Positions 1 to 27,221 of a DNA stretch of 28,115 nt are shown here, in pieces. Positions within the stretch are counted from its first letter, which is position 1; each line of letters begins with the position of its first letter. Source of the stretch: Fragilariopsis cylindrus CCMP1102 (Eukaryota; Bacillariophyta; Bacillariophyceae; Bacillariales; Bacillariaceae); contig FMBT01000270.1 in assembly GCA_900095095.1 (NCBI GenBank), forward strand, positions 1-28,115, written 5' to 3'. The position numbers and the translations under genes are program-made. A model generated the notes under the pieces. The model saw only the letters and a program-made list of their open reading frames with translations, was not told the origin of the DNA and did not search any database.

Positions 1-2123
1 CCATAAATTCAAAAGTTTTCGCGAGAATTCGATAGGGGACATCCCGGCCGAAGTAGCTACGCTGAATCGCTGTCGAAGCTATTGCGTCCCGTATATTATT
101 CCAAAGAGATAGTTATTAGATAGAATGGATTATTATGTGGTGAGAGCGAGATATCACAACATGTCCGGTTTGCTGAGAGATGGCAAACAAATAATATTAA
201 TAGCAACGGAATTATTTACCTGCAGTCTCATCAGTCGTTCTTTTTCTGGTTCTGTTTCCGGTTTATAACCGAACAAAGGTTTGTCTAACACGCGATGGGG
301 CTGATATTTATGATAATAATGGAGTATAACTCCATCACGTTTTTGAACGACACTACCGGAACCACCAGTAATATCATCACCATAATTACAAACCAAAGAA
401 ATCAAATCTAATGCATATCCGTATATCGGTTGAGGTCCTTCCACTGCCCTATAAACAAATTTACTGTTGCTACTGGTATTGCTCCTGTTGTCATCGCTAT
501 TATTCTTGTTCCCACCACCTATACCAATCGACGCAAGCTTCTTTCCTTGCGTCCACAAGGTTTGATAGGTTTTATCTCTCGCGGGGATGTTTCCCATGTC
601 GATCAACTTAAGAGGATCTTCTTCTTTTACTACTTCTGTCGTCGGGGGGTTTACGGTAGACTTTTTTATTCGTTGAAGGAAACGTCCGCCGACTCTACGA
701 ACGCTGCAAACGATGAATCCGGCGATTTTATACTTATCTCCACGTTCAGCCAACGAAAACAATTTTAGACAGGCTTTAACGAGAGATCGATATTGGACGT
801 TTCCAGAATGTTTCCTACCTTGTCCACACCTCGCAAATAATACATCGTTCGGTTGAACGACAGTTATGTCACTGTTGATGTTACCACTACACACAGTGAT
901 GCTGCTGATGTGGCAGTTATAATCGATTGGAGGTAACTCCTCAAACAAATTTTCTGTTTTTCGAAACCATGTTTCGGGATCTGCAAGGATGTGTGAAAAA
1001 GGCCCTTCCTCCTTCTTAATGGAAATAGTACCTTGTGTGTGGGTTGCTGTCGCGTTGTTATTAATAGAGGAACTCCCACAATCATTAGTGTATTGGTTTC
1101 CAGTATTTAACCTCATGGCTCGTCGCTTGGTTGATTGATTACAGAAAATATCTTCGTTGTTGCAATTATTATGATCTACTAGAAGAGTTTTTGTTACTTT
1201 AGCAAACGTTCGTTCCGACTCACACTCTTCTGCCTTTATCTGTACATCTGTCCTCGATGATGAGTGTGATATCGTGTCATCGCAATCATCGGCATCTACC
1301 CTCGAATATAACAATTTCGAGGCTTCCTTTCCTTGCTTCCAATGTCTACTTTTGTCTTTATTTCCTATCTTCCGGATATCTCTACGTTTATTAGCAAACC
1401 ATTGGTCCAATCGTTTGATTTCAAGACCCGTATCGGCTATCATACGTTGTTTGTCTATCCCAGTGGGATATGGAAAATTGAAGTGATTTATAAACCAAAT
1501 TTTCAGATATTCGACGACACGAGGATCGAGGAGACGATTACTGATGGGTTTACTACCACCTACCAGATCTGGAGTCTTTTTCTTTTTGAGTTGATTGATG
1601 GGTCGTATATCGTCTACTGGAGTTGAAGTCTTTATATTGTTGAATGGAACGTGCTTGATGGGTTTACCACCATCTACCGGATCTGGTGTCTTTTTCTTTT
1701 TGAATTGACTGATGGGTCGTCTATCGCTTACTGGAGATGGAGTCTTTATATTGTTGAATGGAACGTGCTTATTGAGATAGAGAGGAATTATATCATCATA
1801 GCAAATTCGATCATATTTGTTCCTTTTTCGACAGTGATAAATCCCTCGTTCTTCAATTTTGCAATCATACCACGCCATGTACTATTGGCTGACATGCCAA
1901 GCTCAGAGAGCAACTCTGTTTTACTATGAGCTTTTTTTCCATCCTTCTTGAGATAATCCAAGAGAATTCTCGCTTTGGTCAATGGGCTCGGTAAATTCCT
2001 TTTTAACGGTAGAGTCTTTCTCTTTTTTTTCAATGGAACGTGCTTGATTTTTTGGTTTTCGTCATCGTAGTTGTTATCTCCAAGAAGCTTCCATGGCTTT
2101 TTCCTTTTTCGTTTTGATTCCAT
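1..2123 (-). CDS. Winged-helix + TALE homeodomain + DUF6824-like regulator (3' end off the window)
   Basis: Probable nuclear DNA-binding regulator, read in two frames that join at about 1824-1828. The first frame starts at the ATG 2123-2121 (A at -3, G at +4). It encodes a Lys/Arg-rich leader and a helix-turn-helix of winged-helix type (KARILLDYLKKDG, SKTELLSELGM, then a helix ending in LKNEGF). The second frame gives two 38-aa KHVPFNNIKT repeats and a TALE homeodomain at 1369-1536, with the PYP loop and WFANKRRD recognition helix. At roughly 530-850 lies a block resembling DUF6824 (NDVLFARCGQGRKHSGN ... GGRFL ... KTYQTLWTQGKKL). A KHVP motif also occurs in the first frame, which supports one gene. 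One missing base in an A5 run (T5 on the plus strand) restores a 635-codon exon ending at a GTAAAT donor (219). A 158-nt intron to CAG|CGT at position 61 then gives an in-phase exon, RSYFGRDVPYRILAK, that continues past base 1. Domain calls are by eye; the homeodomain is the surest. Confidence 0.72.
1369..1536 (-). other. TALE-class homeodomain (domain within the regulator)
   Basis: The core runs from RLLDPRVVEYLKIWF through WFANKRRDIRK. The proline-tyrosine-proline triplet between helices 1 and 2, with the longer inter-helix loop, marks the TALE class (KNOX/BELL/PBC-like). In WFANKRR the invariant Trp48, Phe49, Asn51 and Arg53 are present. Position 50 is Ala, where many TALE proteins have Ile or Gly. 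Confidence 0.85.
1543..1770 (-). repeat. Two 114-bp tandem repeats encoding 38-aa KHVPFNNIKT units
   Basis: The copies are 1657-1770 and 1543-1656. Each encodes a unit starting KHVPFNNIKT, with KKKKTPD in the middle and ending GG/GSKPI. They differ by scattered substitutions with no frame change, so the duplication is in-frame and not brand new. A shorter KHVPL relic lies upstream at about 2030-2047 in the winged-helix frame. Confidence 0.85.
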
Positions 2124-2261
2124 GTTGTTGTTGTGTCGGCTGTTTTCAATGTTGTCAACATACTTTTGAGCATGATTTGATGGATTTTGTTTGGGGATGA
2201 TTGATTCCTTCATTCGGAATCCTTTATTTTTTTTATTTAGAAAAAAAAATCGAAAATTTGC

Positions 2262-2330
2262 AAAACCTCGCATCCCCCCAGCCGGAGGCGCTTCGCGGCT
2301 CGCGGCGGGAAAAAGTGAAAAAGATTCTAT
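2262..2330. other. GC-rich island upstream of the regulator
   Basis: A short GC-rich patch (CCCCCCAGCCGGAGGCG, then CTTCGCGGCTCGCGGCGGG) is followed by AAAAAGTGAAAAAG in otherwise AT-rich DNA. It sits about 140 bp upstream of the minus-strand regulator start and just before the HA-repeat fragment on the plus strand. A related CGCGGCGGG...AAAAAGT string occurs at 5891-5914. It could be a promoter element or the remnant of a small mobile element; the sequence alone does not decide. Confidence 0.3.
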
Positions 2331-2383
2331 TTTCATCACAATTCCATCTTCCAGCATCACAGTTGCTTTAATCAGATCATCGT

Positions 2384-2647
2384 GTGGATCTTCTAAATTC
2401 CATCGGATTTGTTTGGAATAGACTCGATAATCGATGGGATGAAACGTTCCAGAGAGTCGTTGCGTACAAGAAACAGCATGGATCAATGTTAGTTCCTGCA
2501 GGGTATGTAGTGGATCCAGCACTTGGATTATGGGTACGTTGGCAACGAGTAAACCACAATAACAATAACATTGTTGCGTCCAAGAAACAACACGAGTCAA
2601 CTCAAGTGCCATCAAAATTTGCAGAAGATCCGCAACTTGGTATATAG
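2384..2647 (+). pseudogene. Fragment of a helicase-associated (HA) repeat protein
   Basis: The open frame begins in the tail of one HA unit (LNSIGFVWN). It then has one nearly complete HA repeat (DNRWDETFQRVVAYKKQHG, LVPAGYVVDPALGLWVRWQR). A second unit has lost its Trp-containing first helix: it resumes at VASKKQHESTQVPSKFAEDPQLG and stops at 2647. HA-domain proteins normally carry several full repeats of about 65-70 aa. There is no convincing ATG and no upstream repeat array in the flanking DNA, so this looks like a relic of a gene or of a transposed copy. The HA identification is by characteristic residues; relic status is inferred. Confidence 0.65.
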
Positions 2648-3336
2648 GTTGGACACAATGAGTTGCATACAATAAGCTCAAGTTATTGAAAAAAAAAGAG
2701 GAACGTCTAAATTCCGTCGATTTTGCATGGGATGCATGGGAAAATAATAAGATTTCACGTGGACGACTATAAAAGATAATAACATTGCTCGTAGTTGCTG
2801 TCTGTGACATAAACAGCTATTAATAAATCAATTACTATATAAGATCAACATAAACAAAGTGTCTGACAGTGTGTTCTTTGTTGTTTTGTTATTTTTAAGG
2901 CGAAGTTGAAAGTAACTTTAAAAAGGTCCTTTAATACGATAATAAGCGGACCTTTCGATTACAATAAGATGCAGTATTCAAAATTCTTGTTGGTAGCAAC
3001 ACACACTAGCTCCATAGTTAGATATAACGTACTCCTCTGTTGTTTTGTGTTCTATACTTATACAGAAAATTCTCTACTCAATACGATTATTAAATATCGT
3101 CTTTGCTGCCATTATTTTGTAGATAAGCAGTTGCTATTGTGTTTATATTATATCTTCGCCATTTTTATTGGGTTGGTAGCGAAAAAGAAAAGGCATGTCT
3201 GTCATCTCAACTGCTTTCGTCATCTTCATACCGTACCGTTGTATTGTAATTCCTGTTCGTGTGCGGTACAAGATGTAAACTCGATATTTGAGTTATTTCC
3301 TCTCAAAGGATGTTGTATTCTCTAATGAAAGATCTT
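2648..3336. other. Intergenic region, no convincing gene
   Basis: AT-rich spacer between the HA relic and the 3' end of the FAD oxidoreductase gene. A 9-bp direct repeat GCATGGGAT/GCATGGGAA lies at about 2725-2742. A CACGTG palindrome (2756-2761) stands just before TATAAAAG (2768-2775). A plus-strand open frame (first ATG about 2969, stop 3325) is Cys/Leu/Tyr-rich and shows no recognisable domain; I do not call it a gene. Confidence 0.5.
2756..2775 (+). promoter_or_regulatory. CACGTG box followed by TATAAAAG (possible promoter)
   Basis: A perfect CACGTG E-box/G-box is followed after 6 bp by TATAAAAG. The pairing resembles a core promoter with a bHLH/bZIP site, but no convincing plus-strand gene lies downstream, so it may be fortuitous or a remnant. 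Confidence 0.25.
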
Positions 3337-5035
3337 TTACATTTTAATCTTTTTATTGAGTTCGAGTTGCTCCCAAACACTCAATAACGCATTTGCACAT
3401 TGCGCACCCGACGAAGCTACTGCAGGGACACCGATACCTGATGTCGTCGAATCACCACATCGGTAGTAACCAGGAAGAGGTGTCGTCACTTCTGGAAATT
3501 TGAATTTAGAATCTCCTGCCGCAATCGCCAAACCATAATTTCCTCGATGACGCTTCAAAAACCGACCGTGAGTTAATGGGGTACCGATTTGTTCGACTTC
3601 GGCTACGCCCAGAACAACCAATGGAGCACGTTTTGCAATTGCGTCCCAAATGGGTTGGGCTCTTTCTTTTTTGAACTCTTGGTATTTTTTGGAAGAAGCT
3701 CGACCTTTTGCGTCCAGGTCTTCAAAATGTTCCCATGCCTCATATGGTTCATTGCCCGCACCATAAGCATGAATGACATGATATCCCGGCGGTGCCAAGG
3801 AAGGATCAAGTTTGGAAGGACAACTGACAACGATAACATTGCCCGGAGCATCGATACCTAAATTCCAGTCTTTGACTACTGTCCATTGTGCGGGAGCGTC
3901 ATCTGGTATTAAATCTGCTTTGATCCCCGCATGAACATGCATGAAGGACTTACAAAGTGGCACTCCTTTTTTGTTAATACCAGCTCCCAACAACCTTTGT
4001 CGTTCTTCATCTAAACCTTCATGTGATGTTTTGACCAAATCGTACGTCATTTTCAAATCGGCGTTACTAACCACTGCTTGCTTGGCACGAATGATTCTAC
4101 CACTTTTTGCCAATTTCACTCCCACAGCCTTACCATCTTCTACGAGAACTTCTTCAACACTCGAGCTTATCTGAACGTCACATCCCTCGTGTTTGGTAAC
4201 ACCTCGCGCCAACGCATCTATCAATCCCTTACTTCCTCCTTTAGGATAGTCCAATACAGCACCTTCTCTGTAGAAGTCTTCAACCATGTATGCCATGACG
4301 GCTGTTAAGGTTTGATCAGCGGGTAATCCCTGCAATAAAAATGCGATCAAATCTAGATAATTTCTCAGGAATTTATCCTTGACACCGTAATCATCCAAAT
4401 TAAATGGTTTGACAATATTTTCAGCTTCAAAAATAACATCAAAGAATGATTTTGGATATTTCGCAGCCAATGTTAACAATATCCCCCAATCTCCACGAAT
4501 TGCTGTACTGGGCAAACACATAATAGTCTTTGCCATTGGTCGGACTTGAGCTGCTAGTGTCTCCCAGTCACTTTTGGCCGTGGGACCACCATAACGATCA
4601 AGAATTTTAAGAAAGTTATCAGCACCAATCGATAATTCATACCCGTCTGGAGCTTCAGGTAAAAATGCACCCCATCGGTCATACGTAATCCATGTAGGTT
4701 CTTCTCCAATCATTTGGTATATATGCTTTAAAGGATTTGGACTTCTGTCGGGAGACATGCCAGCATAAAGAGATGGACCCGCTTCGAATTTGAATACAGG
4801 CGTTGTTGGTTGTTCAATAACGCCGCCGAGGGGATCGTTTGTCCTTTCATATTGACTGCATATTCATGAGCACAACCACCCATTTCGTAATGTGATTCCA
4901 ACACTAAAACTTTTCGACCTGCAGTTGCTAAAAGAGAACCACATGATAGTCCAGCAATTCCTGATCCAATAATAACAACATCGTATGATCATCGTCTGTT
5001 GATGATGCGGCATTTAATCTGTGCGAGACGGAATT
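3337..5035 (-). CDS. CRTISO/phytoene-desaturase-like FAD oxidoreductase, two frame breaks near the N-terminus
   Basis: Member of the carotenoid isomerase/phytoene desaturase/retinol saturase-like flavoprotein family. The N-terminus shows the FAD-binding dinucleotide fold (DVVIIGSGIAGLSCG, then VLVLESHYEMGGCAHE). The middle has FEAGPSLYAG and SPNPLKHIYQMIGEEP. The C-terminus has the family signature GYYRCGDSTTSGIGVPAVASSGAQCANAL. The last 473 codons from ATG 4758 are intact, but that ATG lies inside the catalytic fold, so it is not the true start. Two breaks, near 4833-4840 and 4984-4990, are each repaired by one missing base, giving 566 residues for this exon. The 5' end is open: a hydrophobic MTTSANVLFLFFHF start at 5128 could be a signal-peptide exon, joined by a very short intron (5036-5075). 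A carotenoid role in the plastid is inference; substrate and targeting are unknown. Confidence 0.75.
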
Positions 5036-5075
5036 CTTTTTATTATATTGGTTGATTCAGTGTAAATGTGCTCAC

Positions 5076-5128
5076 CGGCTTCACAAGAAGTGAAAGAATA
5101 AGAATAGTACATTGGCGGATGTTGTCAT
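5076..5128 (-). other. Possible first exon (signal peptide) of the FAD oxidoreductase
   Basis: An ATG at 5128-5126 opens a short hydrophobic stretch, MTTSANVLFLFFHF, of signal-peptide character. A GTGAGC donor follows at 5075 and an AAAAAG acceptor at 5036. The frame has a stop near the end and fits the downstream exon only if one base is missing; the 40-nt intron would be unusually short. Tentative. Confidence 0.25.
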
Positions 5129-5340
5129 GTTCGATCTGCTTATTTGGTATCGTTTTTGTCGAGTGTTGTTGTTGATTGTTTGTTTCTGATGTTTTGTTGC
5201 TGACTGTTTGTCGTTGATTTTAGTTGTGATGTTTGTTATTGTATATTGTATTGTTTGTCGAAATTGTACTTCGTATCGGCATGGCAAAAGAAAAATACTG
5301 TTCATGTAAGAAGAGAATGGAGAGGCAAAAAAGCAAAACG

Positions 5341-5412
5341 TGACCCTGACGGGGCTCGAACCCGCAACCTTCAGTTTCGAAGACTGAAGCTCTACCATTG
5401 AGCCACAAGGCC
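5341..5412 (-). tRNA. tRNA-Arg(UCG): tRNA-Arg (anticodon UCG)
   Basis: A 72-nt cloverleaf on the minus strand. Acceptor stem GGCCTTG pairs with CAGGGTC (with G-U pairs), and the discriminator base is A. The D arm is GCTCAATGGTAGAGC. The anticodon arm TCAGT-CTTCGAA-ACTGA puts TCG at positions 34-36. The T arm is GCGGG-TTCGAGC-CCCGT. There is no intron and no encoded CCA. T4 and T6 runs just downstream on the minus strand suit RNA polymerase III termination. Because it reads CGA codons directly, it is the U34 Arg isoacceptor. Confidence 0.95.
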
Positions 5413-5964
5413 GATCTACTTCAATTTAGTGAAGTCGTACAATATTCCTGAGATTTTCACTATATAAAATATGTAGATGTACAATACAATATATTGTATG
5501 TTTTATGACATCAATATTTTCCTTACATTAATCTAACTTGGTATTGGGATGGAACGGCCCTTCTTAGATGTACTTTGTACATACTTACAGAAAGTTATGG
5601 TAGTTTGATAGTAATTAATGTTTACTTTTTCCTGCCAGGTAAGTGCTGCCAAATGCCAGCGATTTTTACATGAATTCTGTGTGACAACCTTTTTGTTCCT
5701 ACTATGCGTGAACTTTTTGATCCTCTAATTTTCAACAGCCTACTCCAAAAAGAACAATTATACAGGTTTAAAGAAGAGAAGACTACTATCTTTAATTTGG
5801 TGTCTTATTTTTTGAACACTAGAAGACGAGATATTAAGTGTGGATTACTATGACGACAATCAGTCGACTTTGTTTACAATTTTTTGAGGTGCGCGGCGGG
5901 GCTAGGAAAAAGTTCACAAAAAATAGAAAAAAGAATGTAGATTTAATTACATTTGTTAGTGTGA
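5413..5964. other. Spacer between two tRNA genes
   Basis: AT-rich, with no supported coding frame. It contains an AT palindrome around 5488-5499 (ACAATATATTGT). At about 5888-5935 a CGCGGCGGGG...GGAAAAAGTTCAC stretch resembles the GC-rich element near 2290-2325. Otherwise I see nothing. Confidence 0.5.
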
Positions 5965-6035
5965 TGCACTATCCCAGAATCGAACTGGGGGCCCAACGAT
6001 GGCAACGTTGGATTTTACCACTAAACCAATAGTGC
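5965..6035 (-). tRNA. tRNA-Gly(GCC): tRNA-Gly (anticodon GCC)
   Basis: A 71-nt cloverleaf on the minus strand. Acceptor stem GCACTAT pairs with ATAGTGC, discriminator A. The D arm is GTTTAGTGGTAAAAT. The anticodon arm CAACG-TTGCCAT-CGTTG puts GCC at positions 34-36. The variable loop is 4 nt and the T arm is CCCAG-TTCGATT-CTGGG. There is no intron or encoded CCA. The nearest T6 run downstream on the minus strand is about 25-30 nt away. Confidence 0.95.
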
Positions 6036-6313
6036 TTTTTTTGTTTTCTACTAAATTCGATCAAATATCATTACATATACTTTGTTTAATGTCAAAGTTT
6101 TACCACAACAACGGCCGTTCGAGTAGCTACTTCGTACGACTACTACTAGTACAGCAATAATAACATTGGTACGGTACTATTCTATACTGAAAAAGAGGTG
6201 GTTTTTGATACAGTATCAAATTGTTATTCTAGGGCGGAGGATTTAAATTACATGGTACTATTTATATTATTATTAGTTCAATGTACTGATTATCCACTAT
6301 CCACGATCTTTTT

Positions 6314-9300
6314 CTAATCTTCTTTGTCTACTGCCCCTTGCTGCAATCTATTTATTCGAAGAATCTCTGTCAGTCTTGAAATTTCTTTTTCAATCTCTTT
6401 CACTTCCACTCTCTTCGTTCCATTAGGAATTGGACTACTCTTACTTATCAGTAGCGGTAGGACGTCTAAAGATGGGTCAACTACACTGTGCGAAAGCTTG
6501 CTATTTTCATCTACACTACTGTCACATGATGATGCATTGTCGCGAATGCGATACTTATGGAGCCACGGCATTAATGCATAGATTAAGATTAACCTCCATG
6601 TACTACCAGCTCTATGGCAAAAATTCTCAGCATAACGAAATTTCATAAGGTATACAGCTCCTAACATTTCAATATATGGGTGACGGTGAGCTTCATGGGC
6701 CAGAATATCGCAAGTGTGAATTGTAGGAAGAGGATCGAGGCTTAATTTACCTAATTGACCAATACCTTTAGCAAGGAACGGTCTATCGATCATCCCAAGT
6801 GAGGCTAAAGATACAATCATCAATTTTATCTTTAATCGCCAAATTTATTTTTTCGTGTCATCAGAATATAATATTGATTGAGAAGTATGTTAAATATATC
6901 ATGAGTATGTTTTGAATAGGCTGGTAAACGTTTTGTATCTCCTGATCAAATACAACATTAAGACATCATTACACATCATTGCAAATACACATACACGTAC
7001 CATTCGAACCACGATGATAAATATAGTAAAAAAATAATTCGCCCATTCTAAGGCTAACAATCCAATATTCGCACCCGCTGGATTTTTCCTGTACAATCCT
7101 TTGAAAAAAGCAACCCTGCAACAACGTCCAAACTGTACACGAAACGGAGATACAGAGAAAGAAAAAAGAATGAAAGTGAGAGAAATATTTGTAGTACAGG
7201 ACACTCCGATATTACTAGTAGACTTTACTCACCACCGCACGCATCAACAAGAAGAATATGAACCCAACGCCAATTATCAGAAACTGAAATGCTCCGTAAG
7301 ATGTTTGTTGCCAAAGAAATAGAAACACAACAAAGCCCATAATTGCTCCAGAAAGGAGTGCCGAGACGAAACATCCCCAAAACAATGCACCCGTTAACAA
7401 AGTGATAGTGTCAGGTTTTCCTCTATATTTTTCGAAACCTGGATCTCTTAATGAAGGAATAACACCAGTACGTAATTCAATTATGGTTGCTGTGACTGAT
7501 GGAATGTACAGTAGTGTGCACCGCATAGCAGTATAAAATGCAACGGCTATAGCTATACAGAGAGGAATCGTAATCATCCAAAGTTTTTCAGGAAGCATGT
7601 CACCACCGAAAGAAGAAAGCGTATCTGAAACAGCATTTCTAAAATTGGTCACTATACTTTCCAGTTCACTGGCTTCTAGTAGCGCGTCATGAAGATTGGG
7701 GTTGTCAACATTCAAAGCAGGGTTTTCTAGCAAAATACACGTTGCTTCTGCTGACTCGATATTGCTACAGTTTACGTTCCCTGATGTATCATATCCACAA
7801 ATTGAGTCAAGAAGTTCTTGTTGACCTTCCATGACGACACCATCACAATACGCATCTAAGATACCAGTAGCGTTCATATTCTCCATGAAACTGTAAACAA
7901 AGTTTAATGCATCGATACTTGTCTTATCGTTCCAACGTTTATCAAGCCTTGCGACAAGAAAATTACCGATATCAGAGGAAGTTTCAGATTTAGCAGCTGC
8001 CTTCGCGTAGATGTCCACAGTCCTGATGCTGTGGTAATATAAACATGGATAATTCCGTCGTTACGTTCATGTGAGCAAATTTTCGTGTTGTCGTCCCATC
8101 GTAGCACATACACATTAATGCTCAAACAGAGAAAATTACTGTACTTACAGAAATTTTGATCCGAAAACAACGATTAATATACTTATGAAACATTGAGATA
8201 GATTACTAGCTATCAAACGGGCGCTATAAAATATCCCTTCTTCATAAAATATGGTTTGGTTGTATACCCTCCTCCAAAACCAGAATAAACCACCAGTTTT
8301 TATGTACCTTGTTCCATGTAATGCATATGTTGATAAACCTCTACCAAAGTACGTCACAAAAACTTTATTGGTTGGTACACGACGGTGAATATCTCGGGCA
8401 TTGGTGACTAGAGTATTTAGCTTATATGCGGCAGCTTGTTTGATTTGCAGTTCTTGTTTTTCATTACCAAACCCGAATCGTCCCCACCACTTACTCTTGT
8501 TGAAATCAACATCTTTGAACCATATCGTAACAATATGTGTACTGTAAAGATGTAATAATTGTGAGTATTATGAATGAAAAAGAAAGTATGCCAGTAAACA
8601 TCAACACAGCCAGCGCAATAGTAACGAACACCGTAACCGTTATTCATAACATAACTCACATATGTAAATACATGGTAATGCATAGTAATGTCAAAGCTGT
8701 TAGTCTAGTGTTCCTGAATTCGCCTTGGAATTCGCCTTCATCTTCAGATACATCAGCCCCAGGAGTAAATAGTTTTGGATGGAGAAAAAAATTAAAGGGG
8801 ACCAAACCAATTGCTACACAACCTATCAGTGGTAAGTACCATCGAGGTTCTTGCATATTATAATTTCCGATATTTCCCAATCCAATTATAGTAACTCCCA
8901 AACAGCAGAACATAGCAAAAATAAACAGCAAAGTCAAAATATTGACACCGACTGCACAAAAGATTCCATCTACATCCTCTGTTATACTTCTCTGTTCGCC
9001 ATGTAGCTCTTTACATTTCGCCCCAATATTTTTCAAACCAAGAGGATTACGAATCCATGCTAAAGAAAACAGTCCAAATACTGTTGATAGCCACAGAATA
9101 ACAATGAGCGCTTTTCAGGTATGTTTTATCATGAGAGGGAACAGAAAAGAAGAAAAAACATGTTGTGAGAGTTTTGTTCGTTCTGCTTATTCATTCTATA
9201 ATTGTTCCTTAACTGTCACTCTATCATCACCTTACCTTTTGATCGGTAAGTTCCTGCAATCATATCTATGGCAGGTGCAGTATAAATGCGTTGTACTTCT

Positions 9301-10214
9301 TTGGTGGTCACCGAATTATTATTATTACTATTATTATTACTACCATTTCCGCTAGTAGTAGTAGTAGTAGTAGTGCTTCTACGAATCTGATTCGCTTCCT
9401 CCTCCAAAGCGCCAAGTTGCACATCTAATGATGATGTTGCGTTTTCGCTCGTCTTACTATTCCGGGAGGTATTATTACTATTACTATTACTATTCTCGCA
9501 TCCATGATTAAATATATCTTCAATTATCGATGATTGTCTCGTTTCGTTTCTCAGATCGTACAGTCGAGCGTCACTTGTCAATCCACGACCGAACGACTTT
9601 ACGTCGAAGATCTTAGTAGAAGCATCATCGTCTACTACTACATCATTAATAGAACAGGCTTGTACCATTTCTTCTAATAATGTCTGATTGGTGGCTAGTT
9701 CATCCTCACCATACAATAGCAAGATGTACTTAACAAATTCAGTTGTTATCATTATTTCAGAACTTGCTGTTGTATTACCGAACTCATTACTACTGCTATT
9801 TTTTTTAATGACATCATGTATAATAATATTAGCACAGTCCGCCAACAAATCGGATGGTGGAGGTAAAACACCTGGAGGCAATGTTCTGTTGTTACTACTG
9901 TTCTCAACATCGTCATACGATCCCTCCACATAGGCCGCCTTCAATAGTAATGGAATTAAAATAATTGCTGTAACCTCCATCAAATCGAGAACTTCATCAT
10001 CATTAGACGATCCACCCATACCATCCATTATTATAGTTTGTACCTCGTCTAATGTGACCTTGATGCCAAACCTAGAAAGTAAATATACTTGAATATCTTC
10101 ACTGTTGATACTACCATCCGATCGAATATTTTCACCACTTTGATGTAAAGCACAAATATATTTGATCTCATTCGTTCCTGGTCTTGCTCCCACAGGCCGA
10201 TCGAATGCCACCAT
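6314..10214 (-). CDS. EF-hand-like polytopic membrane protein, six exons, about 1088 aa
   Basis: Exons: 10214-9236, 9110-8660, 8541-8149, 8028-7233, 7132-7001 and 6829-6314. The introns have GTAAGG, GTGAGT, GTAAGT, GTGAGT and GTACGT donors with AG acceptors; all phases match and the sum is 1089 codons including stop. Exon 1 (aa 1-326) has an EF-hand-like segment near the start (DGSINSEDIQVYLLSRFGI) and Asn/Ser/Thr-rich runs. Exons 2-5 carry roughly eight to ten membrane spans, for example ALIVILWLSTVFGLFSLAW and LLALEWANYFFTIFIIVV. Exon 6 ends with DILAHEAHRHPYIE, then STWRLILIYALMPWLHKYR and a coiled-coil-prone tail. I do not recognise a named family. A channel or transporter controlled by calcium is a guess from layout only. 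The last intron (6830-7000) has the weakest acceptor. Confidence 0.7.
9296..9376. repeat. Trinucleotide-rich stretch in exon 1 of the membrane protein
   Basis: ATT/ACT and GTA triplet runs on the plus strand encode Asn-rich and Thr-rich tracts in the minus-strand protein. Simple in-frame microsatellite of a kind common in this window. Confidence 0.7.
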
Positions 10215-10812
10215 TCTCTATTCAATAAACAAGAATAGTGGAAGAAAGGTATGTATTCAACAACAGCAGACGTTAGTTTTGCTTTGTTTTGCCTTTGCCT
10301 TTGTCTTACTATATTTCGAAGTTGCATTAGTAACCAATCCAAAAGACTGTAAATAATAATGATCTTTTCGATCTACCTGTCTCACTTCTTTACGTAGTTT
10401 TTGTGATTACTTTAAAAAAAATGACTTTGGAGATACAGTTGACAATTGACATTAGAATAACAGAAAGAAAAATATCTGGTATAAAAAATAAAAAACATCA
10501 TTACAAAAAACAATATTCTTCTCTAAAAAACGGACCGATTTTTACTTAACATTCAAATGGATGGTAAAAGACTATTTCAGTCTTAACAAGTCATCATCGT
10601 GGAATATTGCAACGTGACATCAAATCTAAGACCATATTTTCATTGTTAGACCTATTGTAGATCATTTGTTACATCAGGTCCCGGTGAACCAACACAACCG
10701 ATACTGCAGTAGCTGTATACAGTAGTAGATCACTGAATTGAATCAGTATTACTCAATAGAAAAAATCGAAAACTGGAAGCGAGATATAGAAAATAGTAGT
10801 AAAAAGATCATC
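10215..10812. promoter_or_regulatory. Divergent intergenic region between the membrane protein and HRD1
   Basis: About 600 bp lie between the starts of two diverging genes, so it must hold both promoters or a shared one. It is AT-rich with A-runs; no coding frame is supported and I could not pick a convincing TATA box. Confidence 0.4.
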
Positions 10813-12876
10813 ATGGAGGATCCCCAACCCGAAGGCGTTGTTGACGACGATGATGCTAACGTCGTTGAAACTGCCTCGGAATTACAACAACGACTTGCAG
10901 AAGAGGCTATGGAAAAAATGTTGTTAGCTCAGAAGAGGAAGGAGAAGAAGGAGCTGATGATGATGAAATTGCAAATAATAATAACAATAACAACAACAAC
11001 AACAATGGAGAAGGTAATGACAACAACGACCCTGACTTTGCCGCCAACGACGTGACGATGACGAAGAAATTCCTTTCTTAGACGACGAAATTATGAATAA
11101 TGCTGGTATAAACTTTCACAATAATCAAGATTCTGAGAATAAGATGAAAAATCCATTTACGTATGTACGGGTTAGTTTTTGGTCTGCTATATTTCTAGTC
11201 TATTACGCATTCCGGTCACGACAACAATGGTATTTAGCATTAGTATTTTTATCATCAAGTAAATGGTCATATGTTATATTAGGTAATGCATTAATTGCAT
11301 CATTGATTTGGTCGTTCCAAATGGTTGTGAGTTATGTGTTGAATGGTTTACGATACATGAAGCGGAAGGATTAAGTGACTTTTTTCGTTGGCATATTACT
11401 GAAGCATGTTTGGCATTAACAATTTTTCGAAGTGAACTTAATGTAAAAACTGCAATATTATTTTTGGTACTCGTATTTGCAAAATGCTTACATTGGGTAG
11501 TTGATATGAGAGAAAGTCATTTACGTATGACAGAAGAGGTTGTTGTCGTTCATCCCACGACAGGATGGATCGCTTTGCGTTGGCCTCATGTGAAACTACT
11601 AACCTGCATTAATATGTTAGCTGTTTTTGATATTATTGCAGTTGTTATGTGTGGTATGAATATTATGACAAATGGACCATCTGTATCAATTTTCTTTGCC
11701 TTTGAAAGTCTTATCATGCTTACATCAGTTATTTCTAATAGCCTTTTGTGGTACCTGCATATGATGGATGGGATATTCCATTACTTACACGAAAAATACG
11801 ATTCAACTAAAAAATTGCACAATTTGATCCACCCCTGGAAGGATCACAAGGCGACACTAATTTTTGCCGTTGAGCTACAAGCACAAGCGGCTAAATTTAT
11901 GTTCTATTTAACTTTTTTTGCTATCGTTATGACGTATTACGGACTACCTATCAATTTGATCCGAGAGGTATACGTTAGTTTCCATTCACTGAAGACTCGA
12001 CTGATCGCATTTAACAAATACCGGAAACTCATGTCGAGTATGAATCGATTCAAAAATCCAACTACTGAAGATCTAGAAGAGGAACACATATGTATCATAT
12101 GCCGTGATGAAATGACAGTGGAGACATCAAAAAAATTACCAGGATGTGGACACATGTAAGTAAACCGTCTACCTCCCACGCGGTATTGTGCCATATACAA
12201 TTTTTCCGATCGTATGAATCCTATCGCATCTCATCCCTCCTCCCCCCATCTCTCTCTCTCTTTTACAATATCTTATATAATATTATAGATTCCACAAAAG
12301 TTGTCTTCGAGATTGGTTGGTCCAACAACAGACGTGCCCTACCTGTCGAGGAGATATCACTGCTAATGAGGCAAGGCAGAAAGTTCAAGATATTTTGAAC
12401 GCACGTATACAGGAGCAAAAACAAGAACAAGAACAGGAAACCAAGGAAGAACAAGAAAAAGAAGGCGGAAACCAGGAAGACCAACAATCCAGCACGGAAC
12501 GTACATATGCTGATGTGGGTGAGACAACGGATACGGCTTCGAATACGGGCGTGGAAGATGACCTTGATAAAAAACCAGCCGCGAAGGAGTCTTTCCTGAA
12601 CAAAGATAAACAAGTTAGTGCTTCTGCTAGTAGCCAGGAATGCTCCGCCTTTCCAGCGTTTTATCGCGTCATACAAGATACTGGCGCGTCCGTTTTCAAC
12701 GATGGCGACTTTCCGGCTGAAATTCGAGTCGTTCCTTTTGGTGTTATCTTGTTGGGACAAGAAATGGATTATAGAAAACATAATGGAGGGAACCGGATGA
12801 TGGTTAGATGCCTGATGGATGGGTATATGATGACAACGTCGAACGAATAATTGCTATACCATTTGAATCGCAATAG
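10813..12876 (+). CDS. HRD1: HRD1/synoviolin ER-membrane E3 ubiquitin ligase (ERAD), with four single-base frame breaks
   Basis: ER-membrane RING E3 ligase of ER-associated degradation. The RING-H2 finger is complete: CIIC, then CGHIFHKSC split by an intron, then LRDWLVQQQTCPTC. Upstream, the multi-span domain matches the family at FFRWHITEACLALTIFRSELN, KCLHWVVDMRE and the LRxxEAE-like junction. The intron is 12156-12288 (GTAAGT...ATAG). The start is the first ATG of the frame (10813). It gives an acidic/Asn-rich extension of about 110 aa before the first span, where canonical HRD1 starts almost at the membrane. Frame breaks occur at the A6 run 10913-10918, near 11050, at 11352-11356 and at 12810-12812; one added base each gives 644 aa ending at TAG 12874-12876. 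After the RING come a Gln/Glu-rich region and a conserved-looking block (FPAEIRVVPFGVILLGQE ... MVRCPDGWV). No plastid presequence is seen, so I favour host ERAD over the plastid SELMA ligase. Confidence 0.88.
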
Positions 12877-14209
12877 AGCAATTTTACTATACATACTATC
12901 GAGATCAACAGCCTCCATTTGATTCTTGTACCGGTAGCCCTTGGGAGATTAGATGAATGGATAAAAGAAAATGCATCAATGTATCAATCAAAATTGGGAC
13001 CCCAAATCAGAAACAGTATTTGTGTAATGTTTACATGTTTACGCATCTTTAATTAGTAGCATATTATGATTTGACAATTATTGCACATATTATATACTTT
13101 ACAATATGAAGTATATGATTTAGTTGCACATTGTAGGAGTTAACTCGGTATTTTTTTGCCAACTTGTTGCCATTTCCCCCATACCAGCTGGTATTGCTAG
13201 TTACCAGTAGGTTTAGGCTTTTATCTACATCATATCTATATTATTAGGACTGTTCTGAACTGCCCTATGAGAACACACTCAATTACACTCAATTACACAC
13301 ACACACACCTTTTTTTTTTACACCAATATTTCTCCATCAAGATCAACTACATATGATGGAAATTATTATCACCATTAATCACAACAAGTTGAAGGCTTCC
13401 TGATGACTTGACTCACTCTGAATGTGCACTGATTCTGAATTAGAAGAAAGTTGATGAATACCACAGAGGCTTTCTCAGTCCAAATCTGTTTTAGGTCTTG
13501 CACATTCCACATGCTCTACAACACACACCTTTCATGACTAAGCAGTAGAAACATTAATATATCTCAGGTAAGCTAGTATACTGGCTTCTTTGGTATGGTA
13601 TGTACTGCTACCAATTTTGTCAGCACTGCCTTCTGCTCCTACATATTCTTTTGCCAGTAAATTGATAGTAATTTTAACTTCTATTATGATGTTATGGCCC
13701 TATTTAAATTGATATCTCATTTTAACGTATACACCGTACGTACTAATAGTATGAATACATAGGCCTAAGTACACCTCCAAGTGTCGTGTTCGTGTCGTAG
13801 TAAAATTTCAAAAGATACTAACATTTATGCATCTGCATCTCCTGTACTGGTACGTTACTGTATGTAGCAAATTGAAATGGACCAATGCATCATAATATTA
13901 TGTTGACTGTTGCGACGAAGCACCAAGACCAAATTGACAACCTTGTCCTTCAGTAAGAATTCAATACAATCAAGCTTTGTGGGTGTATCTAAAGAAAAGA
14001 GTGTTGCAAGATATTCCTCATAAGCAAACATACAATCCAAAAAATAAGAAAAGTCGTCGTCATTGTTAGCTATTACGTGATGATGGAAAACAAACAGATA
14101 CAGCGACGAGGACGTCTTCGTCTTCATCAACTCATCAACAAAATTTGAGACAAAGGAATCGAACAGTAGCATCATCATCATCATCATCGGGGTTCTCTCT
14201 CTTTGCACG
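12877..14209. other. 1.3-kb intergenic region upstream of the acidic protein
   Basis: No supported plus-strand gene. It holds a doubled 10-mer ACTCAATTAC (about 13277-13296), a short (AC)n microsatellite running into a T-run (13294-13319), and a CAT-triplet run at about 14170-14188. A 146-codon minus-strand open frame (13855-14295) overlaps the start of the next gene and has no recognisable domain. Confidence 0.5.
13277..13319. repeat. Doubled 10-mer plus AC microsatellite and T-run
   Basis: Two copies of ACTCAATTAC are followed by about seven AC dinucleotides and a T10 run. A simple-sequence tract with no gene overlap. Confidence 0.75.
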
Positions 14210-17200
14210 ATGAGTAGTATTTTATCAATAATCGCATTCACAACGATAAACGCCATCGTAGTGCATTCTGCGTCAACAGGACAACAAGTAAACAAAAAAT
14301 ACTATCATCGTTGCGAGGAGGTGTACTACTTAACAATGGCAATAATTCTAATAACGTCGACGTTACAGCAGCTGCTGATATCGACATCGGAGGTTCCGAG
14401 CAGGAGCTTACCGACGAGGATTTAGATGAATATATTGAATTTTTACTTGCTTATGCAGATGATTTAGCCTCCGAATCAGACAATCCACTTTTAGAAATTA
14501 TGATTATAACGAAGAAATCATCAGCAGTACAAGCAGCGTGAACAAACACGTACCAGAAGTGGATAATAACGTAGTAGAGCCATTACTGGTAGACGATGTG
14601 GAAGACGATCGACAACTTGATGCTATGGTTGAGAAGTTAGTGGCATCAATCGAAGACTCTGACTTGATAGAAGAGGAAGAAGAAAAACGAGATATGGAAT
14701 TAGAAATTAATTTACAGCAGCAGGAGGTAGAGACAACACTGCCGTCGATAAGGGATGACGTTGTTGTAGAGGATGTTGACGTTGGTATTGACGAGCTACA
14801 TGTGGATGATAGTACACCGATTGTAGAGGAAGCGTCGTTACCGATTGAACAAGAAGAAGAATCAATACTGGTTGATAGTATCATCGAAGATATTGAAGCT
14901 ATTGCTGATGATGATGAGGAAAAGCAACCGGAAGAAGAAGAATCAGAATACATCGAAGAGATTATTTCTGTCGCCGCATCAGAGGATATCATACTAACAG
15001 TATCGGATGACGACACTGGCGATACTTCGGTATTTTTAGAAGGAGAAGAAGATCAAATCTTCAATAATAACGAAGATGTAGACTCCGCGGCAGATTCTCT
15101 GATCAAAAATGACGACGATGACGATGTCGTCGAAGAGGAAGCGGGAGAATCAATAAATACGTTCTATTTGGGTTCATCTGCTGTAGATAATATGCCAGAA
15201 AATACTTCAAGCGTTACATCAACGGTTGTCCCGTTAACGGAGGAGATTGAAGACACTACAACATCAAAAGAGACAAAACGATTATCTTTGTTTTCATCTT
15301 TGATGGAAGGCTTGCGATGGGAAAAAGTTACGAGCTCGAACTCGAACTTGAACGACGACGATGCAGCTACAGATAATGTTGTTACTGACTCGACTGAGAC
15401 TGAGGATGTTTTAGACGAAGCGACCGATGAAACAATTCACGAATCTTATAATAGTGAATTGCCGCTAACGAGGGTTGCACTTGGAGATCTCGATGTATCG
15501 GAACAAGAACATACTATTTCTGTTCACGATAGTCCAAAAGTTGAATCGGAAACGGAAATTCAAAGAATTGAAATAAATGGGTCGACTGCAGGTGATCAAA
15601 TTTTGGTGTCTCAACAACAACAAAACAAACCTACTGCCTCGGAAGAAAAGCAAAACGTAGAGATGAATATCGTCTCCTCGGTCAAAAAACATTATCAGGG
15701 CGTGTGGGGCACTGTAAAAGGTTTTTGTTACCAAAAACGGGAATTAATCTACGGAAAATTTAAACCAACTCCTCCGGAAAGAGACTATACAAAGATTTAC
15801 GAAAAATACTTTGCAAGTCAACACACTAACGACTCCGATGACATTAACGAGAATTCTCAAGAGGAAGATAAATATAATTTGAAAAGAGCTTTCATGCGAC
15901 CGTGGGGTACAGTTGTGAAAAATTTCAAACCAATAATAGAATTCATGACAGCAACAGAATCTGATCAGTACTCCCTGGGAATTCAATCAGCCGCAACAAA
16001 CAGTAACGTCTGTGACACTCACTCCGGATTAGGAGTGTATAGCGATGAAACTCCTACAGAGATAGAAGATACTTTCGAAGAAATACCTGCAGAGATAGAA
16101 GATACTTTCGAAGAAACACCTGCAGAGATAGAAAGTGCTTTCGAAGAAACACCTGCAGAGATAGAAGATACTTTCGAAGAAACACCTGCAGAAATAGAAG
16201 ATACTTTCGAAGAAACACCTTCAGAGAGAGAAGATACTTCGGAAGAAACCGACCAATCAATTGATTGCACTGAGAGTAGATCATCAAAGGGCTCCTATCA
16301 TAAGACTGTCTTCGGTCGACTGTGGGGTACCACCAAAGACACGGACGAGACTGATCAAGAAATAGCAACTCCTGATCTATATTTTCTAGGATTACATGTA
16401 GCTAAAGAAAGCACTTTTGATATTGATATCGGTAAGGGATTGGGAGAAAAAGAAGGAACAATAGATAATAATGCAGTCGACAAGGAAAACTTTGTAGTCG
16501 AAGAAGTTGATGTTGCTGAGGTGGCCGTGAGCTATGGGATTCTCAATAAGGTGGACGAATCCTTCGATGTTAATAGTTTCGATATCTCCGAGTCGTCAGG
16601 TGAATCACCAGCAGAATATTCTGAGGAGATGGAAGAAGAAGTTGAAAGGAATATTCTACAACTTCATGGTGTTGAGAAACACGAAATTGCTACTGATGAC
16701 ATTAAAGTCGACAACGATGAGGAGTTAGCCAGCGTGGCTGACGACATAGAATCATCAGAAAATTTCGAGAATGAACCCGTTGAGGTCGAAAAAGAAATTG
16801 AAATCTTAATCCAGAATGATAAGGGTGACGACGAAGAGACACTATCCAAAATAGAGAATGAAACAAATCCTATCGAGGAAGAAGATTCTTTGACTGACGT
16901 GGATAATGTTGCTGACGATATCCTTGATACTGTCATTATTCTCAGCGCATCAGAATCCCTTGAATCGGCATCGGAAGAAACTGAAGAGGAATTGCGTGAA
17001 AGTGAACTGCACGATGATGATGACGCTGATAACAACTTTGAGGTTGTTACTGATATTGAGGAAGATACAGCTACAATGGTTTCGGAGGGAGACGATGACT
17101 CCATCGAAGTAGAGAACGAGGACGAAGAAGTGGACGAGGAAGATTTTCCAACAGATAATATTTCTGTCTTTTCCGAACAGGACGAATTTTCCGACGAGGA

Positions 17201-19160
17201 AGATTTTGTAGACCTTGATGGCCACGACGATGAAATAATCGAAACTGAGAGTGAAATTGACGATGACGAATGTAATAAAATGGACGATTCGGTGATTTTG
17301 AAGGAAATCAGTTCTTTATTATCCGAAGAGATGGAAAATACGAACTTTTTTTGGAAATTTTTGGTAGCTAAAGGCTTGGAACAATATATCATGATTGCAG
17401 TTGTGATATCAGAGTGGTTTCATCTTTATGTCCTGACTCCATTTATCGATAGTATTTATTGGGCTTCGGAAAGAACAGGACACAACATTTTGCAAAGTGG
17501 TCGTATCTCTCCCCCCAAGTGGTTGAAGACCCGTGGAGGAGCTCTTTTAACTTCGATTAGTGATGACGAAGACGCGAACGAGGTTGAGGAGGAAGGAAAC
17601 GACTGTGATCAAGAAGGTTCAAATGGAGAGGATAGCACAGAACTTGACAGTGATTACGGAACGGAGTCCAAGAACATGGACGGTACCAATAATATGGATC
17701 AGGACGATCAAGTCTTATCGGTAGAAAGTGAAAATGATATCGAGTCTATGCCTGAATCTCTTCCGACCCGCAGTAGAGTAAGACCAAATTTCATGTTTCG
17801 ATTTCTTCTAGACTATGGTCTAATCGGCCACATTCTGATCATGGAATTGATTTTAGTAGCAGAATGGTTCCAAGCTTATGTACCAATGCTCCCAAGTTTG
17901 TTGAAGTACGTCGTTTACGATGTGCTCAAGTATAAGAAAGAGTCACGTCGCGACAATGGAGATCGTGCTTATGATCAACCTAGTGGTTTAATAAATCCTG
18001 ACGGCACCTCTCGTGTCGGTAAAAAGCCGAAGCAACAAACAAAGAAGGATGATCAGAAAGCATTAGATAACTTAAGGAATATCGGTGATGTCAATCAAGC
18101 AAAGTATCGCTTTATCACTCAGACGTTTATGGAGCGGCATTCCCTAGGTCCATACGGCACCAGTATCTCCGAAATTGAAGTTGAGGTCGAAACCGAAGAA
18201 ATCGAAGCAGATAGTGACTCAGGGTGGATATTGGAAGCGCTAGCCCACGAAAGCGACGAGAACGATGACGAAGTCAGCTCTCGCTTTCAACCCAACGTCG
18301 GATTCTCCCTAGGTAGTGACGGTCCAAAAATGACCGTCGGGATGGATTTCACCGTAGGCAAATCAACCAAACGGAGAAAGAAAAAATCATCCCAACTTGG
18401 CACAATTGTCCGTCAGATCGATTACAGTGGTAGTGTCTCATCGAAGAAAAAGCCTCCCGTGTCCCATGTGAGTGATCGCGAAAGTGGTGTAATGGGACGA
18501 TTGCGTGCTGCGGGAGCAAACAGTCTCATGGGACGTAGTATATTAGGTGCATATCCAGCAGATCTCCCACCCCCGCACGAAGCAGGCGATGCTTCTGGGT
18601 TAATTGATCTAGCACGAAAATATGGCTACGGTGATTGGTCTGACGATGGCGATCTCTCCGATAGCAACTTCTATCCAGACAGTGATGAAGATGAAGATGA
18701 AAATGACGACGACGAGTATTTTATGAATGAAGAAGTGCTGGATCGCCGGAGGAAACGATCGTCTACTTCTAGTAGTAACAAGAAAAAGAAATCACGGAAA
18801 CGCAGATCTTCTCAACAAGAACTTGGAGTTAGTTTTGATTTTGACCTGAGTAGGAGTTCTTCTCAAGGAGTATCTCCTCCCTTATCAGATATAAACACTC
18901 GAAGAAGAGAAGAGTCATCTGTTAGTGGTTCTATGTCTTCTGCTCGTCGTCGCCGCAAAAGCAATAGCGGCAAACCACGAAGTCGTCTACCGTCACCAGC
19001 AATGGCAAAGATTGGTAATATTTCCCAACAATCGAAAAGTCGTTCATCTACCATTGATAGAACGGACCTTAAAAACGCTATCCAAGATAATGCAACCAGA
19101 AGGAAAAAGACAAGAACGATTAGTCCTGCAATGTCTCTTTTGGACGAGAAGAAAAAGTAA
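14210..19160 (+). CDS. Giant acidic secretory-pathway protein with repeat modules and a basic Ser/Lys tail, about 1650 aa
   Basis: Family not recognised. ATG 14210 opens a hydrophobic leader (MSSILSIIAFTTINAIVVHS) that looks like a signal peptide. Frame breaks at A-runs 14294-14299 and 14495-14497 separate it from the 4.6-kb main frame; one added base at each gives 1650 aa. The body is Asp/Glu-rich. Features in order: three short WGT motifs (GVWGTVKGF about aa 499, RPWGTVVKNF about 566, GRLWGTTKD about 705); six 11-aa TPAEIEDTFEE repeats between the second and third; two related hydrophobic modules ending SEWFHLY (about aa 1046) and AEWFQAY (about 1195); a block containing GFSLGSDGPKMTVGMDFTVG; and a C-terminal 150 aa rich in Lys/Arg/Ser. 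The acidic body with a Lys/Ser-rich tail and a signal peptide recalls biosilica-associated proteins in composition only; an ER or vesicle membrane scaffold is equally possible. Confidence 0.7.
16050..16247 (+). repeat. Six tandem 33-bp units encoding TPAEIEDTFEE
   Basis: Six back-to-back 33-bp units lie inside the acidic gene. Units 2, 4 and 5 are near-identical; unit 3 carries SA for DT and unit 6 has diverged (SEREDTSEE). All units are multiples of three, so copy number can vary without breaking the frame. Confidence 0.92.
17344..17910 (+). other. Duplicated hydrophobic EWF module in the acidic protein
   Basis: Two segments share the pattern F-x-F-L-x(3)-G-L-x(6-8)-I/L-x(4)-S/A-EWF-x(2)-Y: FWKFLVAKGLEQYIMIAVV...SEWFHLY and FRFLLDYGLIGHILIMELI...AEWFQAY. 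Each is the length of one membrane span or a re-entrant hairpin. They are separated by an acidic linker of about 120 aa. Confidence 0.7.
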
Positions 19161-19755
19161 AAATACCGAGAAGCAGCATCAGTAGTACAACGTATATGTA
19201 GAAAATGTTACGACTATTATATTAAATACTTTTACTAGTAGTAGGACTTCTATGTTAGCACTCATTAGTACCATCGCATTATTAGATGAATTGTTTGTTA
19301 TATTATCTTGACGATGCAATTGTAAATAATATGTAGCTTATCTAGATATCATAACCATTTTGATGATATCACTTCTTTGATGTGTTAATGAATGATATTC
19401 ATTTCTTAAAGCTCACTTCGCCGTCGGGTACAAGAATGGCTAATTGATTGGTTCATTTGCTATTCGTAATTACTACTTTTTATTATCTCTCATTCCAGAA
19501 CTCTAAACACAGTATCCCACTTTCATGACAAATAATTGCTACGTACAAATATGATATGTCTATCCACATCTACCGAATACAATAGATGAGATCAAAACGA
19601 TTGATTACAATGCAGTATTGTTTTGCAAAAATTGCGACCTTTCCTTCAAAAGGTCAATTTTTATGATATAATATGAAATGGAATGCTACTTACTATCAGT
19701 ACTTTTTGAACATGATGTTGTTTCGAAGCAGATAATATGTAGTATATATCCTCGA
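19161..19755. other. Convergent intergenic region
   Basis: AT-rich 3'-flanking DNA shared by the acidic-protein gene and the SDR gene. No coding frame, tRNA or repeat stands out. Confidence 0.5.
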
Positions 19756-20918
19756 TTAAGCTTCAACTAATTTCTCACTTGCCTCCCAAAGCTTCGTCGC
19801 ATTTTCTGCGGTCCCGTTAGGATTTGGCAATTTCAATGGCCATCCTCCGTTCACGGAGGCTTCATCTTTGTAAATACCCACTTGTGAATAAAACTTACCA
19901 GACTCTATATCATCCGCAAGCAAGCAATGGAGAGTTGTCTGAGCACCGTCCTCTGCCGTAATAATATCTCCTTTTAAAATGAAAATGTTCTTAACAAGTC
20001 CACCCATCATTTTACCAAGGAAGCTAGTACCGAATATTTTTGCCATAACGTGTTGATCTAATGGACTCTGAACCCATCCTGGATGGACACTTGTAGAAAT
20101 AAGCTTATCCGAAGGATACTTTTGAGATGCACCAAGTGCATGTAAGTAATTAGAAAGTTTACTTTGCCCATAAGACTCACCGGGATCGTACTCACGTGTT
20201 TCAAAGTTAAGATCGTCGAAATCAACAGTAGGCATAACATCACGCATTGTTGTTAAGGCTGCTGCACATGATGACAAAGCAACGAATCGTGATGGTTTCT
20301 TGGTATCGTCGGCCGTTTTGATAAGAACAGGAGTGAGTAGCTTCATAAGCAAGAAATGACCAAGATGATTGCAACCAAATTGCATCTCGAATCCATCCTT
20401 GGTCTTCCCATAGGGACATCCCATAATTCCTGTCATAAGAAATCCAATAGATATCATCATGAAAATCAGCATGGTATTGGAGAGGAGAGGATCACTTAGT
20501 TAGTTGTCGATACGATCAAGGTGATACACGAATCTCTTACAAAGCAAGACCAAAAAGCAAGAAAAAAGAATCTATCCGAATCATTTTGTGAGTTGATTTT
20601 ACTCTTACCTGCATTGTTAACCAATCCATCCAGTCGCTCATACTTTTCTTTGAATGCATCAACAAAGTCACGAATACTTTGAAGTGATGCAAGATCAAGT
20701 GTAGTTAAGAAGATACCATTAGTTTCTTTAGCAGCGACCTGACCCCGTTCTTCATTACGACATGCAAGAATGACAGTTCCTCCCTGCTTAACGAGTTGCC
20801 TAGTAGTTTCTAATCCACATCCTGAATTTGCTCCTGTTACGATAAAGATCTGATCAGTCAGCTTTTTTTCGAATAATTTTGGATCGCAACGAAGAGTAGG
20901 AGGCATGTGTAACAGCAT
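19756..20918 (-). CDS. Short-chain dehydrogenase/reductase, retinol-dehydrogenase-like, two exons
   Basis: NAD(P)-dependent oxidoreductase of the classical SDR superfamily. Exon 1 is 20918-20609 and exon 2 is 20429-19756. The intron (20430-20608, GTAAGA...ACAG) splits the Gly codon of the NNAG motif in matching phase, giving 327 aa. The cofactor motif TGANSGCG is at aa 28-35, NNAG at 101-104, the catalytic Ser in ALSSCAA near 156-157, and the YGQSK catalytic Tyr/Lys at 190 and 194. The overall layout resembles the retinol dehydrogenase/WWOX/POR-like branch. The start is the ATG 20918, in frame with a typical 20-25 residue lead into the fold. No transmembrane anchor is obvious. Neighbours give no hint of the substrate, so reaction specificity is open. 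The frame is intact, unlike several neighbours. Confidence 0.88.
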
Positions 20919-27077: not shown

Positions 27078-27221
27078 TAATTTATGGGACGGGACGTCTT
27101 CTAAAAATCTTAAAGAACTATGATATATATTTTGAACATAAAATCTTTACATAAAATTACTTCAAGTATTTATATCATCATATTCAATATTACACTCATC
27201 GCCACTAATGTTTTTGTTTTG

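Follow-up and report, generated by a model that had tools for sequence, protein, structure and literature searches.

The window analysed here is the whole of a 28,115-nucleotide contig (C359) of Fragilariopsis cylindrus, from a genome assembly of 67.9 Mb in 818 contigs. Its left edge is occupied by a minus-strand gene for a candidate regulator, and the following features were located in it:

1-2123, minus strand: putative mosaic regulator gene, with exon 1 at 2123-220, an intron at 219-79 and the beginning of exon 2 at 78-1
1780-1979, minus strand: winged-helix block, residues 49-115 of the protein of the second copy (C584), assigned by similarity to C81 and by predicted fold
1803-1805, no strand assigned: one-base length difference that breaks the window frame, from comparison of contigs C359 and C584
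1542-1770, minus strand: tandem repeats of the linker, two 114-bp (38-residue) copies, TRF score 381
1357-1530 (Pfam core 1381-1497), minus strand: TALE homeodomain, from Homeobox_KN, the Meis2 alignment and 55% identity to C182
658-990, minus strand: segment homologous to the C356/C76/C470 gene, reaching upstream of DUF6824, 60-63% protein identity
556-846, minus strand: DUF6824 domain, diverged, FARCG replacing CGRGG, 51.2 bits
220-459, minus strand: first part of the C-terminal module (exon 1), 69% identity with the protein of C674 (E 1.5e-14)
79-219, minus strand: intron of 141 nt, GTAAAT to AATAG, acceptor homologous to that of C674
1-78, minus strand: second part of the C-terminal module (exon 2, truncated at the window edge), with homology to the second exon of C674
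5340-5412, minus strand: tRNA-Arg (tcg), ARAGORN
5965-6035, minus strand: tRNA-Gly (gcc), ARAGORN
11308-12159, plus strand: part of a synoviolin-like E3 ligase
22050-26693, plus strand: long TPR_12 protein
27222-28067, minus strand: ankyrin-repeat protein

On the minus strand of the window, the winged-helix, TALE and DUF6824 blocks are split over two frames, one spanning 2123-1788 and the other 1878-154. The genome contains the locus a second time, on contig C584, where all three blocks share one frame of 656 codons that starts at the ATG corresponding to window position 2123 and belongs to an unbroken run of 814 codons, whereas the longest stop-free run in 300 order-1 Markov sequences of equal length reached 190 codons. 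Because the C584 copy reads as one frame, the break in the window reflects a one-base length difference near 1804 and not the presence of two genes. The preliminary description had placed the three domains in a single protein, and the unbroken C584 frame bears this out, with the same domain order; the frame break that it had set at 1824-1828 is moved by the comparison of the two contigs. Four stretches of the window were compared (1-3710, 3810-13435, 13967-23867 and 23967-28115, the remainder being left out or having no long alignment), all of which lie within C584, three at 99.9% identity and one at 98.4%. Indel bases and substitutions number 3 and 2, 105 and 48, 6 and 5, and 4 and 1, respectively, and the two substitutions of the first stretch, at 132 and 155, are both inside the intron. 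The one-base difference near 1804 may be a sequencing error or a null allele, the latter being possible since the window copy is frame-broken. Differences between the two contigs were also observed to cluster at 5025-5512, around the tRNA-Arg (tcg).

The gene is larger than the 61-2123 initially assigned to it. A splice donor at 219, after residue 635, precedes an exon at 78-1 that continues off the window, and in our splice model the gene ends 9 codons further on C584, for a total of 670 aa; an alternative in-frame acceptor would give an intron of 150 nt (219-70). The C-terminal module encoded by these two exons, like the mosaic origin of the gene, had been overlooked in the preliminary description. 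For residues 556-635 there is a match in a 1516-codon open frame at C674 (69% identity, E 1.5e-14), whose protein we call zinc-finger-like because its C2H2 and BED matches all fall under the Pfam cut-offs. The window gene and C674 have in common the residues ERLMRLQ, then GT, then a homologous exon reading RQRFxxATSxGMSPIEF, and exon 2 retains 75% DNA identity to that of C674 over 85 bp.

The N-terminal block passes no Pfam cut-off. Its best hmmscan match in the window frame is HTH_45, at 15.5 bits for a cut-off of 25.5, which no longer appears among the matches up to E 1 when the full C584 protein is scanned; an FF match at 13 bits is likewise under the cut-off, and NCBIfam yielded no match for the C584 protein or for the winged-helix stretch alone. 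The structure predicted by AlphaFold2 from three sequences (mean pLDDT 71) consists of three helices followed by a two-stranded wing, and the PDB look-alikes of this model are mostly winged helices, none of the Foldseek matches reaching E 0.001. A Z-alpha domain, of the kind that binds Z-form nucleic acid, is a conceivable identity for this fold. We thus consider the block to be a winged helix by its predicted fold, so that the winged-helix character first proposed is retained for the modelled structure and finds no counterpart above any Pfam cut-off. The repeats that follow form a basic, proline-rich linker. A short piece resembling the KHVP start of the repeat also lies beyond the winged helix, where a 23-bp repeat-like match upstream of the block has a score of 36, the highest score among 300 shuffles being 30. 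The occurrence of a repeat-like piece on both sides of the winged helix ties the two window frames together.

The identification of a TALE homeodomain stands, with a Homeobox_KN match of 49.2 bits (cut-off 24) obtained by hmmscan in the window's own frame and also above the cut-off in the C584 protein. The domain aligns without gaps to Meis2, the alignment to Meis chains shows the three-residue loop extension, and the recognition helix keeps WFxNxR (WFANKRR, where the aligned Meis2 has WFINARR); at the loop, the remaining four TALE loci of the genome are two residues longer than the window gene. Judging from these features, the homeodomain is structurally conventional and appears to retain what is required for DNA binding. 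Other TALE proteins usually carry KNOX, BELL, MEIS or PBC domains for dimerisation. The window gene shares with them the Homeobox_KN match above the cut-off, the ungapped alignment to Meis2 and the WFxNxR signature, but differs from the known TALE classes by its winged helix, its DUF6824 and its C-terminal module, and none of the four partner domains is among the Pfam matches of the window frames or of the C584 protein. It resembles in this respect ORO and SAM of brown algae, which according to the accessible text of their description are also devoid of known TALE partner domains; the domains flanking their homeodomains matched no known domain there (PMC6368402), whereas the window gene contains a DUF6824 above the cut-off.

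What had been described as a DUF6824-like block is a match to DUF6824 itself (PF20710), with 51.2 bits for a cut-off of 27 by hmmscan in the window frame and a score above the cut-off in the C584 protein as well; the lack of any DUF6824 match, one of the two outcomes by which the preliminary description would have been overturned, is thereby contradicted. Its AlphaFold2 model has a pLDDT of 82 and a pTM of 0.74, and none of 75 Foldseek matches had an E of 0.001 or below. Of the conserved columns of the domain, which include the CGRGG loop, a W and the TSQALRE helix among the core, the window gene keeps 21 out of 31, compared to 29 out of 30 in its nearest relative and to a range of 18/31 to 29/29 over 30 aligned domains. 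The window domain appears from this alignment to be one of the more diverged members, and the loss of 10 of the 31 columns suggests that it may be decaying. FARCG, which according to the preliminary description might change binding, is indeed present in the window gene, but the usual motif that it replaces is mostly CGRGG in the aligned domains and not FGRGG as first stated; we know of no function for the CGRGG motif.

DUF6824 has at least 150 matches in the genome (150 were scored out of 319 candidates, with duplicate copies of loci counted) and none in 14 control genomes. A search of viral contigs with one member as query gave 7 pattern matches, none of them a relative, and we found no paper under the name DUF6824 or PF20710 in the open-access literature. 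Among 32 ORFs from the 30 best of the 150 scored loci, two also carry an HA domain, one a PDZ and one a C2H2, and none carries a homeodomain at E 0.001, the scan being one of single open frames within about 3.2 kb that misses domains on other exons. This count of 0 out of 32 speaks against a general pairing of DUF6824 with homeodomains. A fragment of an HA (helicase-associated) domain is also located in the window at 2384-2661 on the plus strand (45.5 bits in the C584 copy); it begins about 260 bp upstream of the ATG of the putative mosaic gene, on the opposite strand.

The nearest non-identical relatives of the four parts of the gene are found at four different loci of the same genome, and the similarity is visible in DNA. 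The winged helix is closest to C81 (77% protein identity, E 1.1e-17; 78% DNA identity over 193 bp), the next match being C527 at E 0.04. At C81, the matching region forms the end of a 232-codon frame in which two winged helices can be discerned by eye, both HTH matches being under the cut-off. The homeodomain is closest to C182 and its identical copy C349 (55% identity, E 1.2e-12; 72% DNA identity over 147 bp). The closest relatives of the DUF6824 are at C356, C76 and C470 (60-63% identity, E 2.5e-26 to 1.4e-25, the next match being at 1.5e-6), which share with the window gene not only the domain but also the stretch upstream of it (DNA identities of 69% over 234 bp and 72% over 75 bp). For the C-terminus, nothing but C674 matched at E up to 10 besides the gene itself, and the DNA identity is 75-81% in three pieces of 46-85 bp.

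Against these relatives, Nei-Gojobori dN/dS values are 0.30 for the winged helix, 0.37 for the homeodomain, 0.15 for DUF6824 and 0.10 for the C-terminus, and the corresponding dS values are 0.47, 0.79, 1.89 and 2.24, the latter two near saturation. In the same order, bootstrap 95% ranges are 0.18-0.74, 0.28-0.88, 0.26-0.47 and 0.17-0.40 for pN/pS, and 0.19-0.53, 0.31-0.69, 0.57-0.80 and 0.56-0.88 for pS, all computed for these four parts. A pN/pS below 1 in each of the four parts indicates that each has been constrained on at least one side; the low dN/dS may be owed mostly to the branches of the relatives. The pS ranges of the winged helix and DUF6824 do not overlap, and those of the homeodomain and DUF6824 do. 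Synonymous divergence is hence unequal among the parts, as stepwise assembly predicts. We considered capture by a transposon of the Helitron or Pack-MULE type and rejected it: only four inverted pairs lie near the gene (18-27 nt, 75-94%), nine neighbouring proteins that were scanned contain no transposon family (five have no match of any kind), and a PRT6-type gene sits downstream on C584. An old, eroded transposon element behind the assembly is possible.

Taken together, we read the gene as a lineage-specific mosaic transcription factor made of known domains in a new architecture. It seems to us reasonably probable, on sequence grounds, that its product, some 670 residues long, is a nuclear regulator that binds DNA in a sequence-specific manner, and that four other gene families of the genome supplied, step by step, the fragments from which the gene was assembled. 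The fragments would have been joined one after the other into one gene, the parts moving from the relatives into the window gene and not in the reverse direction. Once expressed and located in the nucleus, the protein would contact DNA mainly via the WFxNxR recognition helix of its TALE homeodomain. The winged helix, beyond the basic repeat linker, would assist DNA binding, perhaps through additional contacts. Protein-protein contacts would most likely fall to DUF6824 and the C-terminal module, in place of the KNOX, BELL, MEIS or PBC domains.

The main rival is a decaying chimera, given that the window copy is broken and its DUF6824 diverged. According to this explanation, pieces joined by segmental duplication would have produced a young gene without a settled function that is on its way to a pseudogene, the C584 frame surviving by chance or because of its recent age and DUF6824 already decaying. 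Such a gene would be expected to look much like the frame-broken window copy with only 21 of the 31 DUF6824 columns, and the HA fragment that adjoins it on the other strand looks as if gene fragments collect there. We nonetheless find this explanation unlikely: it has to accommodate an open run more than four times the longest one simulated, four parts with pN/pS below 1, a homeodomain with its recognition helix retained, and the fact that both substitutions distinguishing the two copies in window 1-3710 are intronic.

The history could also have run the other way, with an old full-length order from which the single-domain relatives were derived by fission or partial duplication. The present data are compatible with either direction of transfer, and the winged helix and the C-terminal module each have one close relative locus. 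A single fission, however, would leave similar synonymous divergence everywhere, which the separate pS ranges of the winged helix and DUF6824 contradict, and DUF6824 has many other members in the genome and TALE several, so that we regard this history as improbable. Even less credit is given to the view that the winged-helix and homeodomain frames are separate genes joined in C584 by an assembly error. The one-base disagreement does fall at the frame junction, but indel bases outnumber substitutions in all four compared stretches, as would be expected from contig error, and pieces resembling the linker repeat lie on both sides of the winged helix. We therefore retain the stepwise mosaic as our preferred reading.

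As far as the literature is concerned, the preliminary description knew of no protein with this domain order, and we found none in titles and abstract openings of open-access papers on TALE proteins, diatoms and domain shuffling. A 2016 survey of microalgal transcription factors, in its accessible part, presents domain shuffling as assumed but not demonstrated in algae (PMC4827209). A 2024 paper on brown-algal ROCO genes bears exon shuffling in its title (PMC11378527), so that, to judge from it, the process is no longer unknown in algae. The same part of the survey names bHLH-PAS and bZIP-LOV as stramenopile combinations; like these and the PAS-homeobox of Tisochrysis, the window gene brings a DNA-binding domain together with an unusual partner in a lineage-specific manner (PMC4827209). 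Those fusions associate a DNA-binding domain with a sensor domain, whereas the window gene has two DNA-binding folds and two modules of no assigned function. The gene may offer a concrete case of how single-celled organisms assemble new regulators, since each of the four parts of one regulator has a different closest gene at the DNA level and two further genes look similarly composite. If confirmed in other species, the origin of a lineage-specific regulator would become datable step by step.

We counted five distinct TALE loci in the genome (seven matches, two of which are second copies), compared to 4 TALE proteins reported for Phaeodactylum (PMC4827209) and 2 to 14 in each of the stramenopile species studied (PMC6368402), in both cases according to the accessible parts of these sources. 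Two of the five loci carry a DUF6824, which places this abundant domain in a DNA-binding context. The second of them is the following:

C230 (L045), 3512-5575, minus strand: gene with DUF6824, half an NF-YA and a TALE homeodomain, from a splice model

This model comprises four exons separated by introns of 102, 111 and 99 nt and encodes a 584-aa protein with a DUF6824 (69.8 bits), the first half of an NF-YA (33.3 bits, cut-off 27) and a degenerate TALE homeodomain (29.2 bits for a cut-off of 24), in which WLGR stands in place of the WFxN of the others. The three domains are probably joined in one gene, as modelled. Compared with a DUF6824 at C354 (L029), that of C230 shows 70% identity and a dN/dS of 0.89. 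C230 thus resembles the window gene in joining DUF6824 to a TALE homeodomain but differs by its opposite domain order, its four exons, its WLGR and the fact that no winged helix was found in it. At C411 (L067), the last 1067 bp of a frame that contains a Myb domain (35.2 bits for a cut-off of 24.4) show 94.3% DNA identity to the 3′ part of the C674 (L063) gene. Both C230 and C411 look chimeric and could be further patchwork genes.

These observations lead us to a broader proposal, which we put forward tentatively, as a possibility against which we would still lean. In this lineage, new transcription factors may arise repeatedly when fragments of existing regulator genes are shuffled in frame, with DUF6824 and pieces of the C674-type gene acting as mobile connectors. 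Three such products, differing in age, would be the window gene, C230 and C411; DUF6824 itself would represent a novel type of domain, for interaction or for DNA binding, in place of the usual TALE partners. Finally, at C306 (L048), 3177-5304 on the minus strand, an ORF with a TALE homeodomain lies just ahead of a second one, which encodes a RING finger (zf-C3HC4, 25.2 bits for a cut-off of 21), and the two may be exons of one TALE-RING gene.
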